Below are positions 47,401 to 60,689 of a DNA stretch of 64,000 nt, one piece after another (the first letter of the stretch is position 1; every line of letters begins with the position of its first letter). The position numbers and the translations under genes are program-made. The DNA comes from Chamaelirium japonicum (taxonomy: Eukaryota; Streptophyta; Magnoliopsida; Liliales; Melanthiaceae): the NCBI GenBank assembly GCA_947650365.1, contig OX393555.1, positions 9,850,840 through 9,914,839 on the forward strand. Reading direction: 5' to 3'. A model generated the notes under the pieces. The model had not been told where the DNA came from. It saw only the letters and a list, made by a program, of their open reading frames with translations, and did not search any database.

Positions 47401-50400
47401 TCGGCGATCGGCGACGGCGACTGAGCTCCCCTGCGACGACGGCGACTGCGATCCCCGGCGACTGAGCTCCCCGGCGACTGAGCTCCCCGGCGACTGCTAC
47501 TGAGATCGGCTACGACGACGGCGACTGCGATCCCCTGCGACTGCGATCCCCTGCGCTAGGTTTGCATTTTTCTATCCTTTAGTCCATTTCAATTCTCTTT
47601 TTTTTCCATGATTCCAGGTTTGATTTCACTGCAGTCAAAAAAAAAAATTGGTTACACAAATCAGAAATACAGAAGTTACACACTTACACATATGGAATTG
47701 ATATGTATTGTGTTTTCTTTTAATTCTCTCAATTTGATTATGTTTTCTTTTACTGCAGTCTTTAGACTCTTTACTGCAGTCTTTCCCTCATCTTCTAATT
47801 CTCTCAATTTGTATTGTATTGTATTTACATATTTCACTGCAGTCTTTCCCTCATCTTCTAATTCTGTCAATTTGTTTATGTTTCTTTTACTTTTCATCTG
47901 TAATTGATTTGTATTGTAACGTTTGTATTGTATTTTTTTATTTGTCTTCTTCCAGTTTTGATTCTCTTCGTTGAATAACTATGCCGAGAATAAAAGATAA
48001 ATTTTGGGACTTTGTTGAGCCTGAGAATAGCAAACTTCGTTGCAAATGTTGCAATGAATTATTTACGGCATCAATAACGAGAATGAAATATCATTTGGCG
48101 AAGGTTGAAGGGTGTGAGGTGCGGCCATGCACAGCAGTTAATGATGAAATTTGTCAGTTGGCTAAGGAGGCGGTCACGGGGATCGAGTCAAGGAACAAGA
48201 GGCCTCGAATGTCCGAATTAGATAAGTCATCTACCGGAAGCTCAAGCTCTTTCATTTCTCAATCACATGGAAGTATAGGAACGGGAGGTTCAATTTCAAC
48301 CTTCTTTGGAAGAGGGAGTGAAGGTGAAGGTCAACCGAAGATTGCCTCCTTCATAAAGAAGAAAGAGAAGGAGATTGCCGATCTAAAGCTTATGGCAATG
48401 ATTGTGGCAAATAATCTTTCCTTCAACTTGTTGAGGTCAAATGAGTTCAAGGATGCGATGATGGCGATCGCAAATCATGGGCCGGGGTACGTAACTCCAA
48501 GCTACGAGACCGGAAGAACGAAGCTTTTGGCTACTTTGAAAGGGCAGACAGAGGAATACGTGAAGACTATCCGAGAGTCGTGGGCGGTGACCGGTTGTAC
48601 CGTAATGTCCGACTCGTGGACAGATGCGAGGAAAAGGCCCCACGTCAATTTGCTTGCATGTTCACCGAAGGGTACAATATTTTTGAAGTCCGAATGCACC
48701 GTAGGAAAGAAGAAAGATGCAACCTATATTGCTAATTTCATCACAAGCGGGATAGAAGAAATAGGTGCAAGCAATGTTGTACAATTCATTTCGGACAATG
48801 CGTCAAACTATGTTGCGGCGGGGTATATTATTCAAGAACGATTTCCGCATATCTTCAAAACCTCTTGTGCTGCACACTGTCTTGATTTGATTTTGGAGCA
48901 TATCGACGAACTTCATGATGTCAGTCCAATCTTGGCTAGTGCAAGGAATATGGTCAAATTTATGTACAAGTTTCAACATGTGCTAGATCTAATGAGATCC
49001 CACACACATAAGAGAGAATTGAAAAGGCCCGGCGCAACTAGGTTTGCAACACAATTCTTGTGTTTGCACTCCGTTATCAAAGAAGAACAAGCCCTACGGA
49101 ACATGGTGGCTTCAAATGAATGGAGGTCTTTACCTCAAAGCAAGAGTGATGATGGGATGGAAATTACATCGGTGATTCAAGGCAACCACTTTTGGGAAAT
49201 GGGAAGAAAGATTATAAATGCGATTGAGCCTCTTGTGCGTGTTTTGAGAATGGTAGACGGTGAAGGGTCTACAATGTGCTATTTGTATGAAGGTATGAAT
49301 CGAGCAAAAGAAGGAGTCAAGAAAGCTTTCAATGATGACGCTTCCAAGTTTATGCCATATTGGGATATCATTGATAAACGATGGAATGAGACCTTAGATA
49401 ATCCTCTTCATGCTTTTTCTGGGTACCTAAATCCATATCTCTTTCATCATAAGCTTGTGAAGATGGATCTTGAAGTGAAGAATGCAATTGATAAAGTGAA
49501 GGCAAAGTTGGTTCCCGTGGAAGAAAGAAAAGACTTCACCAATGATTTAAGGCGTTATCATTCCCGAGATCCTAAAATCTTTGTGGAGTCTGCCATTGAG
49601 TTGCTTGATAATGCGGCTCCAAGTGAGTAATTGTTTAAAAGTTTATAGTATTTAGATTATTATTTATGAACATCGTAGGCTCCTAGGTAAACTATATTTT
49701 GTATTTTCAGGAGTATGGTGGGATATGTTTGGGATTGAGATCCCTACTTTGCAAAAGGTGGCAATCAAGTTGTGCAGCCAACCTTGCAGTGCTTCTGGAT
49801 GCGAAAGGAATTGGAGCGCTTTTGATGCGGCGCACACAAAGAAACGGAATAGACTAGAGCCGAGAAAGTTGCATGACTTGGTCTATGTCAGGATGAACAT
49901 GCACTTCATGAAGACAAGTGCATTGAAAGAATCCAAAGATGCGGATCCTATCTTTCTTGATAATATCTCGGCGTTTCCGGAAGATCTTGGCAATGATGAC
50001 GATGAGTGGTCACTTTCTTCGGATAGTGAAGATGATCCAAACACAGACTTGGATGTTGAAGATGAACTTGCTTTAGATATGGATTAAATGTCTCTTTTTT
50101 ATTTGAAATATTTTGATGTCTTTTTTTGATGGCTCATTATGATATATCATGTATGGATTCTATGGAACACTTTTAGTCACTTTAGAGTTTAGACTTTATG
50201 ATGTATTGGAATGGGTCGGTTAATTCGTATGTGTTATGTAGCTTACTATCGAAAACAATGAAAAGCTGAATATTATGATCTATTTGTTCTTTCTTAGAAA
50301 ACTCATATGCTATATGTTTTGATTATTTAATGTTAGACAATGACATATACACTTGGTATAATTTTTAAGTTTTTTTTTATTTTTTTCCGATGTTTTCCCG

Positions 50401-58409: not shown

Positions 58410-58612
58410 TTGGACATGCACACCAATACATCATACATGTCCAAGCTCAATGCCTATGTTTTTTATCATTAGACAAGCACTCCAACACATCAAACATAAT
58501 CAAGCTCAACGACTATATTTCTAGACGTTGGGTACGCATTCCAACACATTAGACTTGTCCAAATTTAGCGGCTATAATTATGATCGCTGGACACGCACTC
58601 TAACACACCATC
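58410..58612. repeat. 60-bp tandem repeat, about three copies
   Basis: Units contain GACATGCACACCAATACATC-like and CAAGCTCAATGCCTATG-like blocks with substitutions. They lie just before the Harbinger transposase promoter and look like subterminal repeats of that element. Confidence 0.65.
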
Positions 58613-58621
58613 TGTTTATCT

Positions 58622-58629
58622 TATAAATA
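58622..58629 (+). promoter_or_regulatory. TATA box of Harbinger transposase gene
   Basis: TATAAATA, 160 bp before the ATG at 58782 and followed by a (CT)n leader (58669-58741). Spacing and orientation suit the transposase transcript. Confidence 0.5.
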
Positions 58630-58665
58630 CATACACATTCCACACTTGGAATGACCATTGCTTCA

Positions 58666-58668
<3 letters not shown>

Positions 58669-58741
<73 letters not shown>
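58669..58741. repeat. (CT)n microsatellite
   Basis: A perfect run of about 36 CT dinucleotides, in the 5' leader of the Harbinger transposase gene. Confidence 0.95.
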
Positions 58742-58744
<3 letters not shown>

Positions 58745-58781
58745 CCCAGCATCTCACCTCTATCTCTTAACTAACATCGCC

Positions 58782-60190
58782 ATGTCGAGCCACAATCGCT
58801 TGAAGGAGTTGCTGCTCGACGATGATGACGAGCATAAGATGCTAGTGTCTTGGGCTGCATGGAAGGAACACAACAAGTGAAGCCATATCGACTTCAAAGA
58901 GGAGGGTTGTCACGGATTGGATTTTCTTTATTTGTGTGTGTCATCCTTGCCCAAGGGCCCTGCTAATCTTCTCTATATAGACATCCAATAAAATTGGAAC
59001 GATACAAAGAAGATTAGCATTACCCCTGCACAAGAATGGCATACACAAATCGAGAAAATCCAGGGCGTGATAAAGGGTTCTAGTCAACCATGCAAAAATG
59101 ATCTATCATGACTGAAATTACATGCCGCAATAGATTGATCAATGACTACTTCACTGAAGATTGTGTTTACATTCCCATACGGTTCCGACAGAGATTTCGA
59201 ATGTACCACTCGTTGTTTCTCTGAATTCAGTATGCAGTGTAGCAGTACGATGATTACTTCATATAGAAGAGGGACACTACTGGAACCATCGGTTTCTCGT
59301 CGCTACAAAAGGAAAATAGTCACTCTAACGATGCTTGCCTATGAAGCTCCGGTAGATCTCTTAGATAATTAAGTACCTCAAAATCGAAGCGAGTGTTACA
59401 ATTGAATCAGTCCAATGCTTTGTCAAAACATTCAATGCGCTCTTCTCGGAGGTGTATCTATGAAGGTCTAACAACAATGACGTCACATGGCTACTATTCA
59501 TGGCAGAAGGTCGAGAATTCTCAGGCATGCTCTGTATTATCGACTGCATGCACTGGAAATGTAAAAATTGTCCAGCGGTGTTGGTGGGTATTTATATATG
59601 TCACATACACGAGTCGACCGTTATTCTTGAATTCATAGTTAGTAAGGACCTCTAGATTTGACACACATACTTCGGGCGACCCAGATCGTATAACGCTATC
59701 AACGTGTTGGTGTGATCTCATGTTTTTTCTGACATTGCAAATGGCGAGTTGTGCCATGCACCTTCACCATCAACGGCCTACAACCATAGCTACTATCTCG
59801 TAAACGGTATTTACCCACCTTGGTCGACACTCGTGAAAGACACGTTCAAAACATGTGACTTTGAGGCAGAAATACTTTGCGAAGCTCAAGAGTCGGTGTG
59901 AAAAGATGTAGAAAGAGCCTTCAGGGCATTGCATGCTCAATTTACAACTGTGTGAGGTCCGACACTTTTTCTGAAAGCATGAAATGCTTTTAGAGATCAT
60001 GATTGCGTGTATTATTATACACAACATGATCATCAAAGACGAGTGATATGTAGGCCAACTCGATGAAGAGGAGAAAGAGGTCGAGCCATTTTCCCATGCA
60101 CCCATTACAGAATTTGCATAATTTCTTAGTATTCACCACCAGATTAAGAACTGGATAACATATTCTGCACTTCAGCAATCCCTAATCGAG
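58782..60190 (+). pseudogene. PIF/Harbinger transposase
   Basis: ATG 58782 opens MSSHNRLKELLLDDDDEH and stops after 32 codons. After the U6 palindrome (58911-59070) the transposase continues in several frames: NDYFTEDCVYIP, RQRFRMYHSLF, TIGFSSLQK, MLAYEAPVDLLD, GREFSGMLCIIDCMHWK, KDL...HTYFGRP, INVLV, YYLVNGIYPPWSTLVK, KDVERAFRALHAQF and a HAPITEF-like C-terminus. These are the ordered blocks of plant Harbinger nucleases, including the Asp of IDCMHWK and of DLWIWH (Trp replaced by a stop). At least six stops and several frameshifts make it dead. Confidence 0.85.
58911..59070 (+). pseudogene. U6 snRNA-derived inverted duplication
   Basis: 58979-59062 matches plant U6 snRNA from ACATCC through AAAATTGGAACGATAC, AGAAGATTAGCAT, CCCCTGC and CACAAATCGAGAAA, with about a dozen differences and without the 5'-most bases. 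Immediately before it, 58919-58978 is the 3' two-thirds of U6 in antisense (TTTGTGTGTGTCATCC ... GCTAATCTTCTCT). The inverted match continues a little into flanking CACG/CGTG sequence. The result is a palindrome with ~60-bp arms. No T-run terminator or U6 promoter elements are seen, so it is not a functional U6 gene. Confidence 0.85.
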
Positions 60191-60322: not shown

Positions 60323-60689
60323 CAGTAGCGATCCAGTGAGATATACGATATATGAGATAACTTTGAGAAACCTATCTAGAGGTTTTATAATTTGATACAA
60401 ATTGGTGGGCATGCTCTCTATGGCAAGTTGATCATCCTCACAAAAAATCATCAAATTCTAAAACCTCTAAGCACATCAAATGTTAGAAGATTTATCGACC
60501 ATCTATTAAAACCAATAATTTGAATTGTGTATTTGATGTCTCTAGAGGTTTTAGAATTTGATGATTTTTTGTGAGGATGATCAACTTGCCATAGAGAGCA
60601 TGCTCACAAATTTTCATCAAATTATAAAACCTCTAGATAGGTTTCTCAAAGTTATCTCATAGAAGAGTTATCTCACTGGATCGTTATCC
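60323..60689. mobile_element. Foldback MITE, Mutator-like
   Basis: 367 bp flanked by TACAACATAA at 60313-60322 and 60690-60699, a 9-10 bp duplication as in Mutator-like elements. It is almost entirely an inverted repeat: arms of about 160 bp (roughly 60330-60480 and 60530-60685), more than 90% identical, with a ~50-bp loop. Shared blocks include GATCCAGTGAGATA and ATGCTCTCTATGGCAAGTTG. A transcript would fold into a long hairpin. Confidence 0.85.

Follow-up and report, generated by a model that had tools for sequence, protein, structure and literature searches.

The locus studied here lies within a 64,000-nt stretch of Chamaelirium japonicum DNA (hereafter, the window) and consists of a decayed Harbinger transposase region, which we take to be PIF-type, that is split by an insert derived from U6 snRNA. 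The location inside a Harbinger transposase, as given in the original prediction, was borne out by a match to PF04827 (Plant_tran) at 59455-59970 (E = 4.3e-43; 147.8 bits versus a cut-off of 22) and by another match in a different frame at 59867-60046 (E = 1.4e-4), with stops read as X in both cases. The insertion itself measures 165 bp (58909-59073) and is placed between two copies of AGGGTT. The features, for which the U6 boundaries within the arms were refined by comparison with the U6 of the same genome (103 nt), are the following:

58782..60046, + strand: decayed Harbinger transposase region, split by the insert, with approximate ends (from PF04827 and relatives)
58903..58908, + strand: left target site duplication AGGGTT, with the identical 6 bp at 59074-59079
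58909..58922, - strand: non-U6 tail of the antisense arm, which agrees with the right tail at 12/16 positions if the two T of the duplication are counted in
58923..58978, - strand: antisense U6, nt 89 to 34, 49/56 identical to the genome's U6
58979..59057, + strand: sense U6, nt 11 to 89, 70/79 identical to the genome's U6
59058..59073, + strand: non-U6 tail of the sense arm, missing from empty sites
59074..59079, + strand: right target site duplication AGGGTT, from comparison with empty relative sites

Two other elements were seen in the window. Downstream of the Harbinger match, a second palindrome (60326-60686; 361 bp) shows 84% identity with its reverse complement, has ends like GATCCAGTGAGATA...TATCTCACTGGATC, and resembles a MITE or fold-back element. 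Farther away, 47975-50087 holds long open frames, the largest of 551 aa, that presumably belong to a BED-finger hAT transposase, judging from how they read.

Both arms of the insert scored as U6. In an Rfam cmscan of the window, RF00026 was matched in sense at 58966-59071 (67.9 bits) and in antisense at 59019-58912 (46.6 bits), each above the gathering score of 44 that we used for U6-derived sequence, and these two overlapping matches on opposite strands were the only ones at gathering level in the window. Similarly, when 58500-59600 was searched for inverted repeats, a single pair was returned, 58907-58978 and 59002-59073, of 72 nt and 76% complementarity. The sense copy had been described as near-complete and as directly preceded by an antisense copy of its 3' two-thirds. 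We find that the identification and the order hold, but that the extents are smaller: the sense arm covers nt 11-89 of 103, and the antisense arm about half of U6 (nt 34-89). There is no filler at the junction, where antisense nt 34 directly abuts sense nt 11 (58978/58979), such that the immediate upstream neighbor of the sense U6 is the antisense arm. The inverted arm is the shorter of the two and covers only U6 positions that the forward arm covers as well, and both arms depart from U6 at the same base, nt 89. Where a functional U6 gene would be full-length and end in oligo-T, the sense arm stops at nt 89 and continues into a non-U6 tail.

The 16-nt tail is common to both ends of the insert (shuffle p = 1.5e-5; 3.3e-5 versus random stretches of the window) and does not align to U6. 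The inverted match was thus correctly observed to extend past the U6 sequence, although not into flanking DNA as had been thought: the tail bases belong to the insert and not to Harbinger, because the empty sites lack them. We also considered whether the tail might derive from a second U6 unit, given that a tandem U6-like piece at one other U6 locus (L036) resembles the right end, with 91% over 22 columns (E = 0.005 versus that locus). This resemblance, found at 1 of 36 loci, is probably due to chance, since U6 nt 16-25 resembles nt 80-92, and we rejected the idea.

Comparison with other Harbinger copies of the same genome bears on how the palindrome came to this site. A search of the genome (1.52 Gb) with 58780-60100 yielded at least 70 matches, with 40 of 196 candidates scored, and the relatives matched 58780-58906 and ~59075 onward as abutting blocks. 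Twenty-nine relative loci were fetched, of which 25 could be aligned across the site by a flank criterion (L040, L044, L054, and L065 failed), corresponding to 24 distinct places since L046 and L063 coincide; L056 and L057 are near-identical neighbors, 4 kb apart. The U6 palindrome was absent from all 25 aligned loci, and 23 of the 24 distinct places were plainly empty at the site, while L050 has its own deletion over the insertion site, with a gap at the duplication letters. Both copies of the duplication in the window end in TT, whereas the relatives display CT in 22 and AT in 2 of the 24 rows with letters; the same derived TT in both AGGGTT copies is as predicted by a target duplication. 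The two marks of a retropseudogene, i.e., a duplicated target and a site that is empty in relatives, were both found, in agreement with the proposal of a retroposed U6 with an inverted structure. The palindrome is one insertion into one Harbinger copy and is not native to that family.

We did not find a second copy of the insert or of its ends in a genome search (28 of 28 candidates scored; limited sensitivity), in which all matches apart from the window itself fell within positions 15-149 of the query. A search of the genome for other head-to-head U6 copies, which the original prediction had suggested as a check, led back to this place only, with exact cores of 11 and of 9 bases per side (spacer lengths 15-45 and 25-55) and with 0 matches for a reversed-pattern control; diverged pairs could be missed by such patterns. 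Among 66 U6 loci scanned (36 plus 30 re-fetched, as overlapping sets), the only opposite-strand pairs were L067 and L081, both of which are the window itself; in the U6 family search, 48 of 105184 candidates were scored, such that diverged pairs may be missed. The literature titles and abstract openings that were searched, with partial coverage, contained no report of a palindromic U6 pseudogene.

U6 retroposition as such is common in the Chamaelirium japonicum genome. Of 36 other U6 loci, 12 displayed a run of at least 8 A within 60 nt after U6, and 12-bp direct repeats were present at L011, L018, and L034. In contrast to these poly(A) copies, the U6 palindrome has a G-rich target and a duplication of 6 bp, and none of the three L1-like hallmarks (poly(A), long duplication, A-rich target) occurs at 58903-59079. 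For dicots, the available part of PMC4838847 supports L1-like retroposition for protein-gene retrocopies.

The other U6 loci displayed some features of their own. In eight U6 retrocopies (L011, L013, L015, L017, L018, L020, L021, and L029), a short stretch separates the U6 end from the A-run, and in five of these (L011, L013, L015, L017, and L021) it contains TACC, as though reverse transcription had copied the terminal bases of a different RNA, possibly a LINE, and then jumped to U6. The U6 fragments L022 and L023 share a TTGGTGTTACGTTGCAC-like repeat downstream, while L032, with two U6 pieces in tandem, has such a repeat upstream in inverted orientation plus a looser one downstream. At L006, L020, and L025, an extra U6 3' end (from nt 71-76) lies ~40 to 840 bp downstream in the same orientation.

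The divergence of the two arms bears on when the palindrome arose. Over 56 columns, the arms differ from the genome's U6 by K2P distances of 0.128 and 0.138, and from each other by 0.288, near the sum of both. The sense arm carries 8 changes and the antisense arm 7, of which 7 are sense-only, 6 are antisense-only, and 1 is common, this single common derived base being a G to A change at a CpG. In a simple Poisson estimate, the probability of at most one shared change is 0.025 for a duplication three quarters through the life of the pseudogene, 0.11 for one half-way, and 0.44 for one at a quarter. A late inverted duplication is accordingly disfavored, but the base counts alone speak only against a late one, and hence the remainder of the case rests on the boundaries: The ends of the palindrome coincide with the start of the target duplication on both sides. 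The insert was probably born palindromic.

We consider it probable that the insert is a snap-back U6 retropseudogene, i.e., the product of a single insertion of a U6 cDNA that had folded back and served as its own template. A reverse transcriptase would have copied a U6 RNA that carried a short non-U6 3' tail and would have stopped inside the U6 5' stem-loop, at nt 11. The 3' end of the cDNA would then have folded back, annealed near nt 33-34, and been extended on the cDNA itself as far as its 5' end, tail included. The insertion would be complete once this fold-back strand had been joined to the far end of the target break and made double-stranded, after which both arms would have decayed. 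The signature of such an event is present, with an inverted arm inside the forward span, a common 3' end, and approximately equal divergence, which two-sided priming (see below) fits as well. Snap-back requires the inverted arm to be the shorter one, and the observed anatomy agrees with this. A start of U6 at nt 9-15, near the nt 11 of the sense arm, was seen at 5 of 36 other U6 loci.

Several points count against the snap-back reading. Unlike the poly(A) U6 copies of the genome, the insert has no poly(A), a duplication of just 6 bp, and a G-rich target. When U6 cDNAs with their ends at nt 11 or 12 were folded, the 3' end was predicted to pair with P = 0.04 and 0.06, and annealing of the cDNA end would, in this model, rest on about 1 base; self-priming of a truncated U6 cDNA by a paired 3' end is thus not what folding predicts. 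Furthermore, an early duplication at the DNA level is compatible with the base counts. Last, two-sided priming on two U6 RNAs gives an identical anatomy.

The latter is the main rival of snap-back, although we deem it unlikely. In this route, reverse transcription would be primed by both nicked target strands, each using a U6 RNA of its own and beginning at the 3' tail of that RNA, before a head-to-head junction of the two cDNAs. The order of the arms, the tail common to the two ends, and the lack of filler all follow from this. For mammals, priming of the second strand on snRNAs has been proposed, according to the available part of PMC4476161. However, this route requires two RNAs that share one non-U6 tail, and the published snRNA cases in that part of PMC4476161 start internally and are 3'-truncated, unlike the insert.

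We regard it as quite unlikely that a single U6 retropseudogene came first and acquired its antisense arm later by an inverted duplication at the DNA level, through template switching in replication or repair. A later inverted duplication had been offered originally as one of two explanations, and the base counts allow it during the first half of the time since the pseudogene formed, at the probabilities given above. Yet the duplicate would need to break off precisely where the tail does and to be placed precisely between the left target duplication and the U6 start. In addition, the two arms have diverged to about the same degree and have a single derived base in common.

The other of these two explanations, 5' inversion by twin priming, is not supported by the anatomy, at least in its canonical form. 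There, the segment that becomes inverted comes from the 5' part of the RNA and does not repeat the forward one. In the insert, the inverted piece (nt 34-89) includes the 3' end instead and duplicates a portion of the forward nt 11-89. In the available part of PMC4476161, snRNA chimeras ascribed to twin priming are 3'-truncated.

A palindromic DNA transposon (MITE or fold-back) that captured U6 and moved via terminal inverted repeats would account for the inverted repeats at the ends of the insert and for the 6-bp duplication, but it is a very unlikely origin: no match in the genome search for the insert reaches the insert ends except the window, although rarity is not proven by the lack of a match in this search.

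The palindrome had also been suggested to form a hairpin transcript that could yield U6-directed small RNAs. A hairpin is indeed predicted, as the RNA fold of the locus has -78 kcal/mol with z = -8.9 and 65 pairs, a strength that one would expect of a palindrome. Over 72 positions, the arms pair with 55 Watson-Crick, 5 G.U, 6 A.C, and 6 other combinations; the changes in the arms thus have no bias toward preserved pairing (5 G.U versus 6 A.C), which argues against selection for a hairpin and leaves the small-RNA role unsupported. A selected hairpin gene appears extremely improbable, given that the only resemblance to a miRNA family is to MIR2934 (28 bits versus a cut-off of 100; E = 0.51), that the locus sits in a decayed transposase, and that the target would be U6 itself. 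A function of the U6 palindrome finds no support.

If the snap-back reading is true, the insert is a natural example of the by-product that was described from engineered R2 insertions in the available parts of PMC11371274 and PMC11331408. It would also mean that reverse transcription can make a ready-made genomic inverted repeat in one step, as one possible source of hairpin loci. A natural snap-back product with a short duplication and no poly(A) might, as a possible but doubtful extension, point to an snRNA route other than the poly(A) one behind other U6 copies of the genome, e.g., via the enzyme of an LTR retrotransposon. All this carries modest weight, since there is just one copy, which is diverged and shows no sign of function; the insert appears to be an uncommon accident in a process that is already known.

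The insert can be compared with three known systems. Twin-primed LINE-1 inversions, reportedly described by Ostertag and Kazazian in 2001, are alike in their inverted orientation on the 5' side of a retroposed sequence and in their target duplication, but their inverted 5' part is not a repeat of the forward part, whereas here the forward arm is partly repeated in inverted form. For mammalian U6 retropseudogenes, as treated in the available part of PMC4476161, the likeness is that U6 RNA was copied into DNA, truncated, and inserted with a target duplication; those are lone copies or chimeras with another element, while the insert combines U6 with its own inverted copy and differs from them in having no poly(A). 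The third system is that of snap-back junctions that arise when R2 proteins carry out target-primed reverse transcription, reported in PMC11371274, where, in the part available, U6 is almost always the extra template; PMC11331408, as far as its available part goes, gives a low frequency for these junctions. In the 5' junctions of both of these partial sources, the 3' end of the cDNA primes on the cDNA and yields antisense sequence at the 5' junction, as we propose for the U6 palindrome. Those junctions stem from engineered insertions into the rDNA of human cells, whereas the present insertion is old, natural, and probably from a plant, and its antisense copy reaches the outer end of the insert.
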